From NCBI GenBank assembly GCA_900169235.1, contig FWCC01000022.1:26045-90044 (forward strand): a stretch of 64,000 bases of DNA, in the 5' to 3' direction. The stretch comes from Zarea fungicola (lineage: Eukaryota > Ascomycota > Sordariomycetes > Hypocreales > Cordycipitaceae). The notes under the pieces are model-generated. The model saw nothing but the letters and a program-made list of their open reading frames with translations, was not told the DNA's origin and ran no database searches. Both the position numbers and the translations under genes were made by a program. Below are positions 33,015 through 50,722 of this stretch, piece after piece. Each line of letters starts with the position of its first letter. Positions within the stretch are counted from its first letter, which is position 1.

Positions 33015-34789
33015 ATGGAAACCTTTACAATTTATGTGCTCCTCGCCTCAGTGGCGTTACTAGTCCTCCGATGGGCAGACCAAACAGATGTGCCGTACAT
33101 CAAAGGCCTCCCTCACCTACGCGGGGTCCCTGTGTTTGGTAACTTGTTCCTTTTGGGTAGCTACCATGCTAGGAACAGTGCCAAACTCGCAAAAACCGTT
33201 GGGTCGGTCTTTCAAGTTCGTCTCGGCAACCGCGTATGCCTACACTGTCACCCACTTCTTTACAAAAAGAGTTGTACTAACGATTTGGCAAATACCGCAG
33301 CGATTTGTCTATGTTAATTCCTTTCAAACAGTCAAGGAGTTTTGGATAAAAAACCAGTCGGCCCTCATATCTCGACCCAGTTTTTGGACCTTTCACAGCG
33401 TTGTGTCCAACTCGCAAGCGTACACCCTCGGCTCGTCGCCATGGAACGACTCCGCAAAACGGACGAGAAAGGCTGCCGCCACGGCGCTGAATCGTCAGGC
33501 CGTTGAGGGCTACCTGCCCATCATTGACATGGAAGCGGCAGTGAGCTTCAAGGACCTTCTCGCCAATGCCAAAGAGAATAACGACATGGACCCCAATGGC
33601 TACTTCCAACGGTTTGCATTGAGCGTCAGCCTTACGCTAAACTATGGCATCAGACTGAGCGACTCGAAGCACGACGAAACTCTGAACAGGGTTGTGGCCG
33701 TGGAGCGAGAGATGAGTAATTTTAGGGGCATCGCGCACAACTGGCAAGATTTTGTCCCTTTTCTGCGTCTGTGGCCTGGATACAAAGCCAACGCGATAAA
33801 GTATCGCAACTTGCGCGATGAGTATATCCTTTCATTTTATGATCAACTGAAGACGCGGATTGCCGATGGAACAGATCATCCTTGCATTGCTGGCAGCGTT
33901 TTGAAGGATCCGGAAGCAAAGCTTTCTGATAGTAAGTCGATCACAATATGAGCTGTTTAATGTATCTAACCTGTGCCAGGAGAGTTCAAGTCTATTTGTT
34001 TGTCCATGGTTGCTGCTGGACTCGACACTTTGCCAGGGAACATTAATATGACCACAGCATACCTATCCTGTCCTCACGGGCAAGAGATTCAGGAGCGTGC
34101 CTATGAAGAGATTATGAAGTCCTATCCAGGCGAGGATCCTTGGGACGCTTGCGTTACCGAAGAAAAGTGCGAATACATGCAGTCCTTTGTCAAGGTACGA
34201 GCCAGAGAACATCAGCAATAGTAACGTGCTAACATGGAGACAGGAGGTATTACGATTCTGGTCCACTTTGAACATGTGCTTTCCACGAACAAGCATTAAG
34301 GACATTTCGTATAAAGGGTCAACTATACCTGCCGGGACAACGTTTCTCATGGTAAAGTTTTCTCACCAATCTATACTTGAATGAGGAGGCTAACCATTTG
34401 ATTAGAATATGTGGGCAGCAAATCATGACGTGGAGCAATTCAACAGTCCCATGGATTTCGTCCCCCATCGCTTCATGGGCATCCCTACAGCAGGGGCAGG
34501 AACTCAGCACTATGGCTACGGCGCTGGGACAAGAATGTGTGCCGGCTCTCATCTTGCCAACCGTCAGCTCTATGTTGTCTTTACGCGCTTAATTTTGGCA
34601 TTCAACATCCGTGAGACTAAACTGGAACGTGACCGCCCCATTCTTGACACCGTTGAATGCAACGCAGTCCCGACAAGCATGGTCACTCAACCCAAGCCAT
34701 TCAAGGTAAAGTTGATTCCACGCGATCTCAACAAGCTGGAGGGCTGGATTAGTGGTAGCCTGGGACGCACTACCCATCTTCAGATGTAA
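33015..34789 (+). CDS. Cytochrome P450, CYP504-like
   Basis: Five exons (33015-33233, 33301-33931, 33980-34194, 34244-34351, 34406-34789) give 518 residues. There is an N-terminal membrane anchor (FTIYVLLASVALLVLRW), the K-helix ExxR as EVLRF at about residue 356, the PHRFMG segment and the heme loop YGYGAGTRMCAGSHLA with the axial Cys near 436. The region TLGSSPWNDSAKRTRKAAAT and ALNRQAVEGYLPI resembles fungal phenylacetate hydroxylases (CYP504), which ortho- or para-hydroxylate phenylacetates on the way to homogentisate. That subfamily call is from memory of the pattern and needs a search. The I-helix reads VAAGLDTLPG in place of AGxDT, which is usual for CYP504. Confidence 0.9.
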
Positions 34790-35258: not shown

Positions 35259-38009
35259 CTACTGTTCTATAATCTTTCTCAATCTCTCAACTATGTCATC
35301 GTCAGTATATCCCTTGGCTACTCGCCCGTCCCAGTATGTCCATGGCTGGATATATCGGCACTTGCCCACGGATGGCGCGATTTTGTCGAAGATGCGCCTC
35401 ATGCAGGCGGCTGAGCACAGCGTCCTTTCGCGCTCTCCATTAAAGTCTATCATCCTGTGACGCACAATCTCAATTATGTTGGCCGCAATGGCGGCAGCTA
35501 TTGGAGTGCAGTACGATGTCCCGGACACGTACACATTGGGCATGTCCGCCACCCCGCGGTACTCTTCCATCTCGATGTCGTATCCCAATGTGCCGTAGAA
35601 CTCATTCTTGCCCATCGGCGGGTTCATGCCGTGCACGTCTCCATTGCCATCGGTGGCGTGAACGGCGATGACGCCGGGGCAGCTTGCCATCCAGGATGCC
35701 TTGCTGTTCGCGCCGTCATTGCGGCCGGCCGCTGCAAAAACAATGGTTGGCAAGGTGGATTGGACACCTGGATAGACTGCCTTGGCCAGGGCCGCCTCGA
35801 TGCCGTGATGCCAGTTGCCGATGCAAATGGACAGGTTTATGATATGAACTTTACATATTTGCACAGCCCAATTGATCGCCTACCCAATTCCACGTAGACG
35901 CTATCCATTAGCACTGATTGGGGGGGGAGGGAGCTTGGCACGGGTTTGCTCGTTGGCTATCATATGATATGCCGCTGAAGAAAAATAGACTCACCCTACA
36001 TATTCCGTTGATGCTCTCCTCGGATAGCACCGCGCTATTTGTGACCTTGGCGATGTATATCTTGGCCGTCGGTGCCGCCTGAAGAATTAGCTTTGTAATA
36101 AGGGTGCCATGGCCGACGTTGTCATCGCAATCCTGGTGATTCTGGGAAGAGAAGTTGATTACTTCCACTATTCGTTTGTCTTCAATGTATCTTTCTATGT
36201 CAGGATCCTGGCGGCAGATACCGCTGTCGATGATTGCAATGCGGACATCGTCGCCTCTGTACCCTGGCAGAGCTCTCCGCGTCGGCTCGGTGAGTGGCAT
36301 AACATGTGCTTTGGTGAACCGGCGCAAGTATTTCATGAAGTCTCGTGCGGATTCGCTACCAAGTCAACAATGGGACACAATAAAGCTACCGAGTGGCCGC
36401 CCGGTGAAGCCGGTATAACTAACCTGTATTTCCCTTCAGTCGAGCTACGCTCTGTTTGGGGGTATATAGGAACAGGGACACTGAGAGAAGACTGCTCGCC
36501 TCCATATCTCATGGGTTTTTCGGATTTGCCCAAGTCGCCATAATCACGTAGTGGCTGTACAATCTTTTCTATGATGTATTCTTTCCGTCTCCCATGACGA
36601 CCGTTGCCCCCGTGACCGAAGCTGGGCTTTGAGTTGAGGCAGGCCAAGATGGCCTGATTGTACAGCGTCTCAGACTTTCTGAACCCAGCGCTCTCGGTCC
36701 TGTTGATTAAATCCAGTCGGAATTCTTCGGGAGAAGCGCGTTTGTCGCACTGTGGGAACTCTATTGCCTCCCAAAGGTACATTTCGAGCAACAGCTTTCC
36801 GAATACTAGCAGCTGCGGGTCACAGCCTAAATCTGAACCGTAATCAGCATCCCGCTCCCCGTTTAGCGGGACCGTGAGATATACTTCGGTTGCGCTCAGT
36901 ATCTTCTCCGTCCCGCCATGTTGTAGGAAGTAGAGCGCAGCATCAAATTCAGTGGCGCGGCTCCAGTGCGCCAGCGTCGAGTCGTCCGTGGAGAAGTGGT
37001 ATAGAGACTGGGCCAAATTCATCAAAAGCTTATCTCTCTGAACACCAGTCAAGGCTTTGGAGCGGTCAAATGAGAGTTTGCGAGCTGCAGGTCTCCTATC
37101 GAGGAGGTCAGTTAAGCGTAGCGTCGGGGCCGCAGATCCATCTGCCCGTCGGCGAGCTTCAACTTGAATATTGGTTGAATGACCCGACGGAGGCGCGCGT
37201 GGGAGTATATCTATGTGCTTCAAAACCAAGCAATCATTATGCAACTCTGCATCGTGAATGGACTGACAGAGCGGCCTGCATAGTGGCTGCGATTGCAGGT
37301 TTCTATAAAAGTATCAGTACAAGGTATTTTCATGTGACGGGCAGATTGCTAGCTAAATATTTTCAATAAAAGAATAGAAGTGAATCCAGCGACTTTGACA
37401 CAGGAAAGACTTTTGTGATGTAGAGACTTACTGCACTCCGACACCCGTGCTTTGTGTCCACTGCTGTGGCTTCCAGTTGTGTCTGGACGAGAGGTAGAAC
37501 TCAAAACCGGCATCACTACTAGGATCACTGTTGTACAAAGCACCATTCAATCTTAACCTTAGGCAATGGAATCCCTCGTCACACCCTTGCAGCTGCTGTG
37601 TCAGAGTACAGAGCAACGATCGCAGCTTCTCGTGGACGCCAGGGTCCTCTACTGTCCGAGAAACACCACTGCTTGCAGCCTGTTCTCGCTCGATATCGTT
37701 TCTCATAATTTGAGTGTCAATTAATTCAGCAGTCGTCTGGTTGCAGATGGAATCAGTTAAATTGCCCACTACTGGATCCGAGTTCCGATTCCCTCCGCTC
37801 CATTCCACCCCGGCGTCCAAGTCCGCCAGCAAGGCATCTATGCTGCCGTATTGGAGAGACAAAAGGGACAGGACACAACTTTCAATGATAAGAGTGCTTT
37901 CGTACGAAGCTAAGAGATTGGGCTCTGCCGGGTTTGAGTACCTAAGCGGCCGCGAAATTGTTTCATCAGCGGAGACATGCGATCCATTCATGCTAACCTG
38001 AGCCGCCAT
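35259..38009 (-). CDS. Subtilisin-like (S8) protease with large helical N-terminal region
   Basis: Four exons (37432-38009, 36424-37302, 35995-36355, 35259-35879) close to 812 residues from ATG 38009. The C-terminal 290 residues are an S8 peptidase with catalytic Asp (VRIAIIDSGI, about 527), His (NVGHGTLI, about 567) and Ser (YVSGTSYCTPIAAAI, about 727). No signal peptide or classical pro-domain is present, so it acts inside the cell. The N-terminal half is helical, with LCRPLCQSIHDAELHNDC and LLVFGKLLLEMYLWEAIEFP segments like the DUF7580-type region of fungal cell-fate proteins. Known biology: in Podospora, HET-Q2, an S8 protease, cleaves the gasdermin HET-Q1 made by the adjacent gene. The divergent gene at 38775 is a gasdermin candidate, so this is its likely protease. 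Confidence 0.88.
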
Positions 38010-38774
38010 GATAATATGAATATGAGAGAAAGTAGGCAATTTCAGTCGCACCCAAGATGAAACCTGATAGAGGCTGGAGAGCAGCTAAGGGGCGGTACCG
38101 CCACACAATATAAGTTCCCCAATCAATGGCAGCGCCAATAGTTTAGTCACGCCCCCAGCGGCTGGCAGGCAATAATATCAGCAGTACATCCACACATCCC
38201 TCCCCTCCAATTTCCATTACTTTTCCTGCAGCTATCAAGCCGGGCCTTGGAGAAAGCACCAAGGAAGAATGTCAAGCAGAAGCCTTGGATTGTGTTCGTA
38301 GGTAATGCATCTCTGTAGCTTCAGGCATAGAGCCCCTAAACGCTCTTTTCGTGTAAGAAACAAATGAAGCAATGTCCTCAGTCGCGGAGTGTTTATCCCG
38401 ATTGTGTATTCTTTCCCCTCCCATATTCCTTGCTGCGAGTGCGAACCACCCCTCCTTTGCTACCCTGTCCGCTGCCTTCGTGACTAAAGTATGCCGTGTA
38501 ACGTCGGGTCTCACAGTTGGACGACGCAAAGCGCGGATGTGAGTCGCCCGCCTCACTTCCCTGGGCTGCATGAATGAGTTGTCCTGCATGCTGTGTCACT
38601 CCAGCCCCAATTGCGTGCGGAATAGATGAATTATCTAGTTCTTTAATTACAAATCTATCACAATTGAGGCTACGGAAATTAAAAGCCGACGAGAATATTT
38701 TCTCTTACGAACACTGGCCTTGTATCTGTTGCCTTCTGGAACATACCACAAACGAGTTGATTGCTCCTGTTGAA
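38010..38774. promoter_or_regulatory. Divergent promoter region of protease and gasdermin-like gene
   Basis: 765 bp separate the two start codons. An in-frame upstream extension of the gasdermin-like ORF to 38574 reads as non-coding (Cys-rich, no pattern), so I treat it as leader. No defined operator was recognised. Confidence 0.45.
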
Positions 38775-39587
38775 ATGAGTACCGGTGTTCCAGAATACCA
38801 TATCCTCGGGCCCTGCGTCGAAGCTGACAAGCTCTTAATCGGCCACATATTTAGTAGCTTCACCCGCCTTGATGTACTCAACAAAGAACTGGGAGCAGCT
38901 CTAGATTTTGGCGAGCATCGCTTTCAAGAATATCAAGAGCGGGATGTTGAAGTTGTGCAAGATGTGGAGTACGCTGGCAAGGGTGCCTTTATGGCAGGAA
39001 TTCGCGCTGAGGCTGTTGGGAGTAGGCGTCAAAAAATGAGCCTCATTGCCCCCTTCCTAACAACACGATGGATTGAAGCGACACCGGAAGACTACACCAC
39101 GGCTGTAGAGCGCTCTGCCAGAGTCCGCGACTTTTGGGAGAAGTTTCCTAACAGGCCCGTTTATATGGTCACCGGAATGAAAACCTGCGAAGAAAAGACC
39201 ATCTACGCAACAACGGGCAATACACAGGGATTGAAGGCAAATGTTGAGATGGGTGCCTCCGGAGTCTCCGTTGGGCCGATGTGCAGCTTGGTGCGGACTG
39301 TGGCCACCGTGCAGAAGGGAACACGACAAAAGGCATCCATTGTGGCAATCAGGGTTTCTATTCTCAGACAGAACCGCCGCAGCGGCATATTTGCTCTGAG
39401 TCGGGGCCCAGAGGTGGTAGGCGCACCTGATGGCCACGGCCAACTGGTGGAGGCGTCCACTTTGGGACGTGGGACGCGGCCGCTTGACTTTGAGGTTGTC
39501 GGGCAAACATCCGCTTTGGACGAAATAGATACTGAAAGGGTTACAACGCTTTTGGATACAGTTTGGATCAAGCCAGAAGGTGTGTGA
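38775..39587 (+). CDS. Gasdermin-like (HET-Q1/RCD-1 type) candidate
   Basis: 270 residues from ATG 38775, single exon, the usual size of fungal gasdermin-like proteins. Supporting pattern: alternating amphipathic strands, a segment NRPVYMVTGMKTCEEKTIY followed by VEMGASGVSVG and a long strand ASIVAIRVSILR, and a short C-terminal tail that in the family is removed by a protease. No transmembrane helix, signal peptide or enzyme motif. In the family, cleavage frees the N-terminal part to form membrane pores and kill the cell during non-self recognition. The head-to-head S8 protease gene 765 bp away is the typical partner. Homology is by pattern and context only; a profile search could reject it. 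No disrupting lesion is visible. Confidence 0.58.
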   Translation: MSTGVPEYHILGPCVEADKLLIGHIFSSFTRLDVLNKELGAALDFGEHRFQEYQERDVEVVQDVEYAGKGAFMAGIRAEAVGSRRQKMSLIAPFLTTRWIEATPEDYTTAVERSARVRDFWEKFPNRPVYMVTGMKTCEEKTIYATTGNTQGLKANVEMGASGVSVGPMCSLVRTVATVQKGTRQKASIVAIRVSILRQNRRSGIFALSRGPEVVGAPDGHGQLVEASTLGRGTRPLDFEVVGQTSALDEIDTERVTTLLDTVWIKPEGV

Positions 39588-40327: not shown

Positions 40328-42297
40328 ATGGATCCACAGGAATTGCACTCCATCTCTACACTAGTCCGTGATTGTATCGATTTCTTCGATGAATGCAACC
40401 AAACGGCGCTTCGCATTCCCAGACAGCAAAGACTGGACCTGGCAGCCCAGCAGCGATATCTACGACTCTGGGCAAAAACCTTTCAAGTATTCGACCAAGG
40501 AGATATCTGCCTAGACAGGCAGCTTGACACCTCCTGTAACCTCTGGCGTAATCTCATTGTTGCGCATTTTGAACACATTCTCAAAAACCTGCTAACTAGT
40601 GAGTTTTCCTCGGTTAGCAAACTTGAAACTGAAAAATGGCTAATTTAATTCCCACACAAAAGTTGCTGGCTCGATACCGAACGGACAGAATACCAACACA
40701 GCCGCCCTCAACGGCTGCAATGGTCTTGACGATTGCAGCATTCTCAACGATTGCAGATTGCCTATTAGTCAGATAGAAAAGTCGATTCTTAAACTAAGAG
40801 AAGTTGCGAGCCTTCTACTTTACCCGACAGAGAGTGGTCTTGCTCGGAGAGTTGCCAGCTTCCGGCAGGTGTTTGACGATGGCTCCCGTAACATTCTGGC
40901 GCGTAACATGGTCCAGGATCAGTATCCTCAACTGCTTCCAAAGCGGCGTATAATGCGCCATGATGTGAAGTTTAAGGAAGGATCCATAGCACGCAACCCA
41001 AGGACCCCATACGATACGGATTCACATTTCTCTGCCCATGAGAAATCTGTTGGCGTGCTCAAGGCCCTGGCTGATGCTGTTCTGTTCAGACATTATCGCA
41101 TACTATACGAGAGAAAGGTTAGGGCGAGAGGGAATGATCCAACAATACCAAACAACATCCCGAAGTTATTACTGTCGCTACACGGCCAATTGCCCAATAC
41201 ACCCAAATACGCACACAATGCCGTGCAGAGTCTGGAGATTGCACTAGCATCATCAGAGGTAACGAATACCGAGACTTTGCGGTATCCTTCTCCACCAAGT
41301 TTTAGACTCGGGGAAAAAAAGGCAAAATGCCCAGTGTGCCACCGAATACTCGGTGTCGACACGTTCAAAGGGGACAAGTGGATGTAAGTAGCCTATGGTC
41401 GCCCATTCCACAAGAAATGTGTGACAGGGGTACTTTTCTTTTCTTTTCTTTTTCTTTTTGGCTAACATTGATAGATCTCACCTCTACGAAGATATACAGC
41501 CATATGTCTGCATCGATGAGAACTGCCTTGGGAGTGGCAATCCTCGATACTTCGCTACACGTGACCCATGGAGGGACCACATGCGGACAAGGCACGGCAT
41601 GCAATGGCTCGATTATGTACAGGAATCTTTGCAGTGGGTTTGCCCAGTCTGCCGTGACATGTCTACTTCAGAGTTTGCCTCGAAGCAGTTGGCCGAAAAG
41701 GATCTCAAGCAGCACATGCTCGATATGCATTCCACACAGGAGAATGAGCGGTACAAATGCGCCATCCAAGTGAGCATCGTTACTTACTATAGACCGCAAC
41801 ACACATGTTTTATTTGTAGAGCTTGCTATCCCGAAGAAGAGACTGATACTCCTCTGCAAGGGAACTCTTCGGCGGCAACAGCCAGCAAGAAATCGCTGGA
41901 TACTGAAGCCAGGAGACGAGCAGAAAACTGTCTAGCCGGCCACTTGCGATACCTTGCCTTTTCGTTTGCCATAAACCTCATTGACGAAGATGGGGGTTAT
42001 CTGCTGGACTCACAGCCACGCAAAAAGAGCATCGGAACCTCGACGCCTGCAATTTGGATGGTGCCGCGGGACAAACCGCCTTCGTATCAACCCAATGATG
42101 ACAGCCCTCATTCGGTGTATCCAAATAACTGCAGTGCGAATGTATTTTTGAGTAATAAGCCACTCCAGTCGCACAAGAAGCGGCACAGTGTGTCGAACGC
42201 CGCCCGCAAAGGTATGAAGCGCATCTTCGGTCTGCCTAGTCAGTCTGGGCGAGAACCAAAGAATGTCGAAGTGGCAGATTCGAAATGGAAATCTTAA
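40328..42297 (+). CDS. Fungal C2H2-type (AcuF-like) zinc-finger protein
   Basis: Exons 40328-40598, 40663-41383 and 41475-42297 give 604 residues. The N-terminal 90 residues are helical (DPQELHSISTLVRDCIDFFD). Cys/His pairs appear late: CPVCHRIL, CIDENCLG with HMRTRHG, WVCPVCRD with HMLDMH, and CFICRACYP. This is the architecture of a widespread fungal group annotated as oxidoreductase acuF-like C2H2 proteins, of unknown role, often found near cell-death or HET genes. The C-terminal tail is basic and Ser-rich. Position directly downstream of the protease/gasdermin-like pair may be coincidence. Confidence 0.72.
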
Positions 42298-43597: not shown

Positions 43598-45670
43598 ATG
43601 GAGAAAACTCAAGTCATCATTGTCGGCGCTGGTCCTGCAGGACTTTGTCTTGCTCTAGCTCTGGCCAAGTTTCAAGTAAAGGTTAGTTTGCAATCTAGGA
43701 AGCCGTTTTGATGTATTATCATTTTCCTTCAAGAAGGACCAAATAAAACACCAAAGGAGGCTAATACTTGTACCAGTCCGTTTTGTTGGAGAAAGAGACC
43801 GAAGTACCAACAGATCCGAGGGGTGTATACCTGACAGGAGATGCTGTGAGAATTCTATATGACCTGGGGTTAGGGGACAGGATATCCTACATTGGGCATG
43901 GTACGCTCCGCTCCCTCGCCGAATAGTAGAGGCGGGCATCAGCTAACCAAATTATTGAACAGATGTCTACCAAATTAAGTTTCATCAAACCTCTTTCAGC
44001 ACCAAGCCTATGTTTTCTCTCAATATGAGCACATCCAACGCGCTCCAGCAAGCTGTTCAGGAGGGAATTCTACAAATACAACCTCGACTCGGTAAGCAAC
44101 CACCACCATGGTTTTTCCGTGTCAGGCAACCTGTAGCTAACATGCCATAGAAAGCACATTGAGAGAACAGGTCGAGGTGTCACCGTTTGCCGACTTGCGC
44201 ACCGGATGTACAGTGACGGAACAACTGGCAGAAGATCCACCAGCCGTTACCTATACCGATTCCCAAAATACAGTACGTTCAATCACTGGCCAATGGCTCG
44301 TTGGCGCGGATGGCAAGGTCGGGATCGTTAGGAAGCACTTCCTCGAGCCTACCGCGGGGATCAGGCAAGAAGTTGGCAAGTATAGCTATGACGGAACATG
44401 GATTGCAGCGAATTTGAAGATCTCTCTACCAACCCCGCAAACCCACCCACAGTTTCCGCTCTGGGCACTTGGGTACACACCAGAAAGTGTGTATGATCTC
44501 TTCTGGCCAGACGGTTGGCACTTTTGTAGCCCCCCTGGAAAACCAACAGCGGCAGGGAGATTTGGTCCCCATGAAGAAAGGCTCTGGAGACACGAGTTCC
44601 GACAAGACACAACCGCCGATGATCTGGAATCGGAGTCGGCCCTTTGGGAGCACATCATGCCAATGATTACGTTGCAAGGGGATGCGCAAAACGCTTGTGA
44701 TTTTCGCGAACCCGTTCAATATCCACACGATTGCATCACAGTCCTACGCTGCCGCCCCTTCCGATTCACGCACAAGGTCGTAAACCGATGGTTCCACAAG
44801 AAAACAATCCTGATTGGAGATGCAGCGCATGTCTTTCCCCCATTTGCCGGGCAAGGCATTGCCAGTGGTTTGCGAGATGCGCATCAATTGGCCTGGCGAC
44901 TCTCTTTGCTTGTTCAATCCGACTCGCTCAATCCACGTAATTTACCTTGCGCCGAGCATCTTTTAGGGTCGTGGTCTCGCGAGAGACGAAGTAGCGTCGA
45001 CGATGCCGCTTTTTTCTCGACAATCATCGGACAGCTTTGCAACGATCAACCGACAGTATGGATGCGATTCCTTCTCGCTGTGAAGACAAACCTGGATAGA
45101 TTCCCCTGGTTGTCGCACATGCTAGATCCCATGGTGCAGAAGGAGCGCCAGGGCTTCGCCGGTGTGCCAGATGGGTTTTTCGCAAAAGAATATAACGGCG
45201 GCGTTCGAATGGCGCAGATAATTCTACGATCGTCTTCCACGAAGAAACTGGTTCTATCTGATTTCATTCTGAGCAACTCGCCGACAGCCTTCACAATTGT
45301 CGCCATCACAGACGGTAATGACACCGCGCTGAAGTACAATCAGCTTAGAAAAGCCATCAGTGACGCAGCTCTGCCTGAGACTGCATTGACTAAAGATTCA
45401 ATTGTGTTCTATCGTCCGACAGCAACAATCAAGGAGGATCATTGTCTTGATGACACCGAATGCATCGAAATCTACTCTCCGTGTGACTTGGACCCTGCAT
45501 CGCCAGAGTACGCGCGATGTGGTGGCTACGATGCACAGGCATACATTGACCGCCTTGGGAGGTCAACTCAGTTTGCAATTATTCGCGCAGATCTATTCAT
45601 TTTTGCTTGTGTCAAAGACTACACTCAGCTGTGCCACTGTCTGTCGCTTCTGAAACAACAATTGCGATAA
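43598..45670 (+). CDS. FAD-dependent aromatic monooxygenase (phenol hydroxylase/MhpA type)
   Basis: Four exons (43598-43681, 43777-43900, 43963-44091, 44151-45670) close to 618 residues. The dinucleotide fold VIIVGAGPAGLCLALALA is at residues 7-24, and the second FAD motif ILIGDAAHVFPPFAGQGI is near 335, followed by SGLRDAHQLAWRL. Middle motif WLVGADGKVGIVRK corresponds to the DG motif. These group A flavoprotein hydroxylases use NAD(P)H and O2 to add a hydroxyl ortho to an existing one, making catechols. In this block it would supply the catechol for the extradiol dioxygenase at 52819. The C-terminal 150 residues form the thioredoxin-like tail seen in phenol hydroxylase relatives. Confidence 0.92.
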
Positions 45671-49144: not shown

Positions 49145-50043
49145 CTACATGGTGTTGACTCTTACCAGTAACCATAATGGAAGGAATAGCCCGAATCTAA
49201 TTCTCCTGGAGAGAGCGCCCTGCCAGATTTCCATAGGCCGCGTTTTCCTTAGCAGCCTCTCCACAATACTATCAGCGTATTTGCGTGCCGGCATCCCTGT
49301 TTCGTTTCCATTGATCTTCATTCCTTCCAGTTTTTCTTTGACATCAAGGTATAGAGAATCCTTGGGAGCAACGAAGCCGTCACGGAGAATATCGCTTTGC
49401 ACATACCCGGTTACGACTTCCACAACATCGATACCAAATGGTTTCAATTCCTAGTTTCAAAATTAGTAATTAAAATCAATAAATTATTGACAACTGGCTC
49501 AAACGGTCTAGGATGTAGCAAGAACAGTTTTCTTACCAACCGAAGCGTTTTTGAATATTGACTCAGCGCCGCCTTTGAGGCATTGTAGCCACTCTGCCAC
49601 ACTACAGGAACATCCCTCGTCACGCTCCCAATCTGAACAATGGTGCCCTTCCCATGCGGAGTCTTGCGCAGCATGGGGGCAAATATCTGACAGAGACGCA
49701 TGACTGCAAAGACATTGACCGAAAACACCTTGACGACTTGATCGACGTCTAGGTCCAGCGCCGTGGCGGAGTAATGTAGCCCAGCGTTGTTGACAAGATA
49801 GTCCAGCGTACCGCCAGTCATCCGTTCCACGTCTTGAAAAAGTCTATCAATTGCGGCAGCGTCCTCTACATTGAGGGAGAATGCTTTGATGTTGGGGTAT
49901 TCGCTGCAAAGATCATCCAACTGTGAGGCTTCTCTTGCGGTTGCCAGCACTCTAACACCAGCTGAGGCAAAGGCAATAGCTAGGTGTCTGCCAATACCCG
50001 TTCTGCACCCGGTTATTAAAGCCACTGGAGCCTTTTGTTCCAT
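49145..50043 (-). CDS. Short-chain dehydrogenase/reductase
   Basis: Two exons (49537-50043, 49145-49450) give 270 residues. The cofactor loop is ALITGCRTGIGRHLAI, then LVNNAGLHY (NNAG motif), catalytic Ser in IVQIGSVTRD and Tyr/Lys in GYNASKAAL (about 150). The overall pattern is like classical SDRs of the AYR1-like type, with a hydrophobic C-terminus (FGLFLPLWLLVRV). NADP(H)-dependent oxidation or reduction of an alcohol or ketone is expected. Divergent from the Zn2Cys6 regulator at 50723. Confidence 0.9.
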
Positions 50044-50722
50044 TGCTGTAAATAGATAGAGAAGTTCTGACGTGGAAACTCTAACAATGTAAGAGTCTGG
50101 TGGCTGTAGGGCAAGATATGAACCTGTTGTTCACTGCCTCTGCTACTTCTGCCGTGCTCGTACAGCATATCCTGCTATATAAGTTTTATGTTTCCTCCTT
50201 ACTATGTTTATTCGCGCAGACGGGGCAATGATTTGACTTGCAACTGGCCAATTCCCGAGGTAAAAAATACCGTTGCTCCAGTCCCGGGTCCGATCTGTAT
50301 TGTGCTAGCAGCAGCATAGATAATAGCGGTGATCGTCCTATAGCCCAGCCTCTGACTGCATAACTCTTTCATTAAAGGAGTATCTGCGCGGACTTTTCTG
50401 GAACAGAATACCCATGGCAATTCTCACTCTGCGACTGAGGATGCGCAGATGCTCACGAATGGTAAGCATTGCTCCGAAGCTAAGCCAAACGCGCGCAAGC
50501 AGCGGAGGATCTTGGATCTGCCGGAGCATCCTAGCGGCCGTACTAAAAGGGTCTAACCTCGGTGCATCTAACCCATCCCACATTTCTCCTCGTCTCGTCA
50601 CTTGGTGGAACACGCCGCTCTGTTTTTATCGCTTTCCATCGCATCATTTTACCTTTGACACTCCGGAATAGCTACTTTCCTCTAACTAACATAATTCGCC
50701 GAGCGCATGTCAATCGGGCAGC
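50044..50722. other. Divergent promoter region of SDR and Zn2Cys6 regulator
   Basis: 680 bp with no supported gene; presumed promoters on both strands. Confidence 0.45.

Follow-up and report, generated by a model that had tools for sequence, protein, structure and literature searches.

Three neighboring genes in a 64-kb stretch of Zarea fungicola

The window analyzed here is a 64,000-nt stretch of the filamentous fungus Zarea fungicola, part of contig C196 in a 43.1 Mb genome of 456 contigs, and it contains a head-to-head pair of genes, one for a subtilisin-like (S8) protease and one for a gasdermin-like protein, which an earlier note on this DNA had singled out as a candidate cell-death module. 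Gene models, domain searches and a comparison with related loci of the genome added a third gene, which encodes C2H2-like zinc fingers; because this gene accompanies the protease–gasdermin pair, the linked unit reaches 42297, beyond the 39587 at which it had been ended before. All comparisons between loci were made within this one genome, and the genome-wide counts of DUF7580, S8, gasdermin-like and finger-family matches are lower bounds. The features of the unit are as follows.

35259..38009, minus strand: protease gene, DUF7580–Peptidase_S8, 812 residues (gene model and Pfam)
36543..37637, minus strand: DUF7580 region, residues 125–446, spanning intron 1; degenerate kinase-like, proposed sensor or regulatory part (Pfam, profiles)
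35469..36255, minus strand: Peptidase_S8 domain, residues 520–743, spanning intron 3 (gene model and Pfam)
38010..38774, no strand: intergenic region of 765 bp from which the protease and gasdermin genes diverge (gene models)
38775..39587, plus strand: gasdermin gene, 270 residues, one exon (open reading frame, profiles, AlphaFold2 model)
38802..39386, plus strand: predicted pore-forming core of the gasdermin, about residues 10–204, the portion aligned to RCD-1 (AlphaFold2 model, structure comparison)
39387..39584, plus strand: C-terminal tail, about residues 205–270, candidate inhibitory segment and putative cleavage product (low model confidence)
40328..42297, plus strand: third gene, C2H2-like fingers, 604-residue model (open reading frame and genome comparison, gene model)
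41328..41960, plus strand: finger region of the third gene, approximate, spanning an intron (by eye)

The protease gene was modeled in four minus-strand exons (38009–37432, 37302–36424, 36355–35995 and 35879–35259), separated by introns of 129, 68 and 115 bp with the donors GTAAGT, GTTAGT and GTGAGT and TAG acceptors, which together encode 812 uninterrupted residues. The catalytic residues Asp529, His568 and Ser728, as well as the oxyanion Asn660, all lie within the expected S8 motifs (IAIIDSGI at 525, GHGT at 567, AGRNDG at 657 and SGTSYCTP at 725), in agreement with the complete triad claimed in the earlier note. A Pfam search of the 812-residue protein found Peptidase_S8 at residues 520–743 (E=5.4e-16) and DUF7580 at residues 125–446 (E=2.5e-27), the latter confirming a likeness of the N-terminal region that had been seen by eye. 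The protease shows two features of HET-Q2-like (Q2L) proteases, an S8 domain with its catalytic residues and a gasdermin gene within 10 kb, here at 765 bp.

The gap between the divergent genes measured the 765 bp previously given, and both genes proved intact as described, the gasdermin open reading frame (ORF) being open for 270 codons. An in-frame ATG upstream, at 38574, would lengthen the gasdermin to 337 residues, and 38775 was kept as the start because the starts of the paralogues align there. The third gene was modeled in three plus-strand exons (40328–40598, 40663–41383 and 41475–42297) encoding 604 residues, or 591 with an alternative acceptor, and its finger region was recognized by eye from the signature CPVC, DIQPYVC..C, W..H and repeated C..C / H..H.

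The 270-residue protein belongs to the fungal gasdermin family

A profile of six gasdermin paralogues of the genome, the window protein included (profile A2), matched the RCD-1 structures 8jyz_A (E=1e-17) and 8jyz_B (E=4.6e-16), and when 2631 sequences were searched with a profile of the five other paralogues, the window protein was recovered at E=1.4e-15. The AlphaFold2 (AF2) model of the window protein, with a mean predicted local distance difference test score (pLDDT) of 60.4 and ten-residue means of 46–88 over residues 21–210, matched RCD-1 and other gasdermins in structure comparison; past this core extends a tail of about 60 residues, with pLDDT <50 at residues 212–270. As judged from profiles and model, the protein is a member of the fungal gasdermin family with the predicted pore-forming fold, and the structural comparison with gasdermins and RCD-1 that the earlier note had suggested bears out its assignment.

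Named relatives of the family occur in Fusarium, Colletotrichum, Annulohypoxylon, Xylaria and similar fungi, and 46 database homologues were collected, two proteins of this genome itself among them. The paralogues are as low as 18–26% identical to the window gasdermin. A two-sequence profile (A1) found only the window protein itself and the protein of locus C327 in the protein database; its matches to DegP chains (best E 0.0099) were taken as chance. The database proteins P0003 and P0052 are identical to the C216 and C327 gasdermins, and P0004 lies within the C54 ORF; the protein collection therefore includes this strain or one very close to it.

DUF7580, S8 protease, gasdermin and a third gene are linked at seven loci

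DUF7580 followed by Peptidase_S8 on the same strand was found at seven loci (C258, C144, C196, C119, C54, C451 and C216). The two domains are fused in the gene model of the window and lie in single ORFs at C54 and C216, and we infer the same fusion at C258, C144, C119 and C451. All seven proteins keep the catalytic Asp, His, Asn and Ser, with Ala for Pro in the serine motif of C451. A direct search placed gasdermin-like genes next to six of the seven, and diverged gasdermin pieces were detected by profile at C451, in two ORFs (E=1.6e-5 and 0.066), with a third piece seen by eye. These pieces (L032 6431–7345, minus strand) lie in different frames, for which a short intron or decay is possible. 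Protease and gasdermin ORF edges are 88, 101, 318, 454, 560 and 3013 bp apart at the six sister loci, compared with 765 bp in the window.

The genome's 36 S8 matches correspond, by our count, to 31 loci, 7 with and 24 without DUF7580. A gasdermin-like gene lies within about 3 kb of all seven DUF7580–S8 genes and within 10 kb of none of the 24 others (Fisher p=3.8e-7, the loci being kin copies and not independent events), and the nearest such S8 locus, on C144, is about 15 kb away from one. Gasdermin proximity as a property of any S8 gene was rejected on these data, and so was DUF7580 as a mere marker of S8 genes. Around the three DUF7580 loci without S8, no gasdermin or finger match was found in 9.5 kb each.

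All ORFs of at least 50 residues were then compared among the seven neighborhoods and the C327 and C348 regions, without families being chosen beforehand. The only clusters that spanned all seven loci were the third gene and two S8 exons. The gasdermin clustered at six of the seven (E 1e-5) and at C327, the seventh (C451) being reached by profile only; the upstream exon of the third gene clustered at six, and the remaining clusters were either pairs or frames antisense to the protease. Every pair of loci matched in the finger region at E <0.01. Searched against the genome, the C119 finger region found C119, C258, C451, C54, C144 and C216 as well as a marginal C348 (E=0.033), the third-gene protein of the window found C196, C258, C144, C451 and C216 (E no higher than 0.02), and residues to about 275 of the C258 protein, itself aside, matched only C196, C119, C54 and C216 (E<=0.001; 61 of 87 candidates scored). 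The finger family thus appears to be essentially confined to the cassettes.

The third genes differ in what accompanies the fingers. The window gene is free-standing, without an ankyrin or NACHT-type extension, whereas that of C144 carries ankyrin repeats and that of C258 an NPHP3_N (NACHT-type P-loop) match. The C258 gene (L023 3–2210, minus strand) joins fingers, a common middle domain and NPHP3_N, by layout a nucleotide-binding oligomerization domain (NOD)-like receptor; its middle part has many relatives elsewhere in the genome and looks nucleoside-phosphorylase-like by eye.

The gene orders also differ (arrowheads give the direction of transcription): protease< >gasdermin >third in the window, third< >protease <gasdermin at C258, C119 and C451, third< >protease >gasdermin at C54 and, mirrored, at C216, and third< >gasdermin <protease at C144. 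Therefore, the linkage has outlasted rearrangement. The sole gasdermin-like gene outside the seven cassettes, at C327 (L027 8267–9151, plus strand), faces a relic of a protease N-terminus head-to-head (C327:63976–64239, minus strand), laid out as in the window, and can be read as a sister of the window module that has decayed. Against its 18-kb surroundings, the window protease matched the relic with residues 110–200 (E=1.6e-7). All eight gasdermin-like genes found, C451 included, thus have or seem to have had such a partner.

This distribution bears on whether the zinc-finger gene belongs to the unit at all. An ordinary HET-Q2-like two-gene gasdermin/protease module, with the finger gene a chance neighbor or an unrelated co-duplicated gene, agrees with two-gene clusters being the described norm for fungal gasdermins in the available portions of PMC10197012, and block duplication could have spread the modules, C54 and C216 clearly sharing ancestry in all three genes. 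Yet the third gene is present at seven of seven loci, its family was found at almost no other place in the 43 Mb, and it stays despite changed order and orientation and gasdermins diverged to the identities given above. We therefore consider the two-gene explanation somewhat unlikely.

The N-terminal region of the protease may be a degenerate kinase

Ten DUF7580 matches were found in the genome, seven with and three without Peptidase_S8. The three genes without it (C112, C315 and C422) have an upstream HeLo match, partial in C315, and encode HeLo–DUF7580 proteins of MLKL-like layout, listed here.

L033 4637–6319, minus strand: HeLo–DUF7580 protein without S8
L034 3908–5173, plus strand: HeLo–DUF7580 protein without S8
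L035 3819–5393, plus strand: HeLo–DUF7580 protein without S8

At C422, the region of the DUF7580 match also matched Pkinase, at a score below the curated cut-off (E=1.7e-4). When HeLo-type and S8-type DUF7580 regions were combined in one profile, IRAK4 (E=2e-6) and MLKL (1.1e-5) ranked first. With S8-type regions only, the best match was MLKL at E=0.011, and MLKL made up 9 of 11 and 10 of 11 matches at E<=10, which suggests a likeness that is not significant on its own. A single-sequence model of the DUF7580 exon, made with no alignment, had a pLDDT of 34.8, too low for its fold to be read. H[RGKA]D strings are absent from all seven S8-type regions, and six of these also lack a DFG-like string; the window region has DYG and DLG and no DFG. 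Since these HRD-like and DFG strings are missing, the region, if it has a kinase fold, is probably a pseudokinase, and we infer that it forms the sensor or regulatory part of the protease.

Comparison with known fungal systems

HET-Q1/HET-Q2 of Podospora anserina consists of a 278-residue gasdermin and a 388-residue S8 protease (PMC10989679) and, like the window, pairs an S8 protease with a short gasdermin of similar length and short C-terminal tail; the window protease, at 812 residues, adds the DUF7580 region. RCD-1-1/RCD-1-2 of Neurospora crassa (8jyz) is nearest to the window gasdermin in solved fold and sequence profile, but RCD-1 becomes active when it meets its allelic partner, not through proteolytic cleavage (PMC12881547). 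In other Q2L clusters, including the CHAT-TPR/gasdermin pair of P. anserina, a sensor–protease gene adjoins the gasdermin gene as it does here (PMC10197012; PMC12881547). Proteases lie in clusters with about 80% of the gasdermins of fungi, S8 proteases with about 63%, and the partner proteases come in 18 architectures (PMC10197012). The three HeLo–DUF7580 loci and the MLKL/IRAK4 profiles point to a likeness with HeLo/HELL proteins that carry (pseudo)kinase domains and with animal MLKL; these differ in that the window's kinase-like region is joined to a protease and not to a membrane-killing helical bundle.

The legend of Fig. 6 in PMC12881547 mentions kinase-like fusions and two- or three-gene clusters. 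DUF7580 and a zinc-finger third gene go unmentioned in the available Q2L-cluster accounts of PMC10197012 and PMC12881547, and the main text of the latter does not contain the word zinc. DUF7580 was not found in the literature searched, nor was the three-gene cassette met in the available parts of PMC10197012, PMC12881547 and PMC10989679. Since reviews describe protease–gasdermin clusters and DUF7580 is absent from this literature, the core is a known one, a fungal gasdermin/HET-Q2-like cluster, and what appears new is the specified, putative DUF7580 sensor region and the specific third partner gene.

A three-gene death module is the probable function

The trio at seven places in the genome suggests that one cassette holds an entire circuit for self-destruction, and we regard the locus as quite probably a pyroptosis-like three-gene death module of a zinc-finger regulator, a pseudokinase–S8 protease and a gasdermin. 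The short C-terminal tail would keep the 270-residue gasdermin inactive. Upon a natural trigger, the zinc-finger protein, as the likely upstream receptor or adaptor, would control the DUF7580–S8 protease, which would be switched on through its degenerate kinase-like N-terminal region and remove the tail near a [KR]G motif that lies about 60 residues before the C-terminus; once freed, the core would oligomerize in the membrane, leading to cell death. HET-Q1 loses 40 residues after Phe238 (available text of PMC10989679). A [KR]GAxF motif in 23 of the 46 database relatives, ending 28–45 residues from the C-terminus, is proposed by analogy as the putative counterpart of the HET-Q1 cleavage site. 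The closest paralogue of the window gasdermin reads RGAEM at this position.

Several observations weigh against this reading. The window gasdermin has RGPEV (residues 210–214, 39402–39416) where relatives have [KR]GAxF; given RGPEV and RGAEM, the site and the protease preference would have to differ in the window branch. On its own, the window sequence had no match in Pfam, NCBIfam, PDB sequences (E 0.2–1.3 at best) or, beyond itself, the protein database, and the profile of the 46 homologues scored it only at E=3.6e-4, as a divergent member. The AF2 alignment was built from relatives, so that the modeled fold is that of the family, with the tail unmodeled. Weak matches were given by the window third-gene query at C144 (E=0.0013), C451 (0.0145) and C216 (0.0185), and C119 and C54 were not among its listed matches. 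The distance matrices of the families agree to a moderate degree, with much of the agreement owed to the C54/C216 pair: the observed agreement was reached in 5/720 permutations for gasdermin–S8 and in 19/720 for both gasdermin–third and S8–third, compared with 13/120 and 35/120 without C54 and 445/5040 for S8–third over seven loci. Because this agreement is moderate, the modules may have exchanged parts. The C327 gasdermin stands without an S8 protease and third gene. The three-gene order was seen in a single genome, and a search for cross-species relatives in bacterial/archaeal and viral contigs found none.

An incompatibility (het) locus, in which the cassette polices self and non-self at hyphal fusion like het-Q1/het-Q2, would accord with both reviewed fungal gasdermin systems, het-Q and rcd-1, serving allorecognition (PMC12881547, as available). 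The het-Q genes, however, are idiomorphs, alternative occupants of one locus (same source), while the window genes adjoin each other, together with a third, zinc-finger gene, at a single locus of one strain, an arrangement shared with the broader set of protease-controlled clusters. Judged from this single-strain genome, we find the explanation improbable. A defunct or drifting module, its gasdermin divergent through loss of function, is more doubtful still: the window gasdermin lacks close relatives except the C327 paralogue, C327 kept only a protease relic and the C451 gasdermin is in pieces, but all three window genes are open, their introns, where present, are GT-AG, and the S8 catalytic residues are in place.

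Returning to the three-gene death module, we give about even chances to a broader proposal, in which each cassette would be an immune circuit of three parts, namely a zinc-finger receptor interchangeable between stand-alone, ankyrin and NACHT-type forms, a pseudokinase of MLKL-like kind gating an S8 protease, and a gasdermin, with the same pseudokinase family wired to HeLo killers as one switch for necroptosis-like and pyroptosis-like execution. Through a kinase-like domain common to HeLo proteins and gasdermin-linked proteases, a single regulatory part would connect two routes of execution. The stimuli that activate the sensors of fungal gasdermins are described as a major open question (PMC12881547, as available); seven divergent copies of the same three families in several gene orders name a candidate regulator, the zinc-finger gene, and a candidate switch, the degenerate kinase region, both now directly testable.

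Neighboring genes

The module is flanked by cytochrome P450, FAD-binding and short-chain dehydrogenase genes (window 33088–34789, plus strand; 44141–45667, plus strand; 49447–50130, minus strand). A later exon of the P450 gene was placed by eye, and a metabolic neighborhood around the module is possible.

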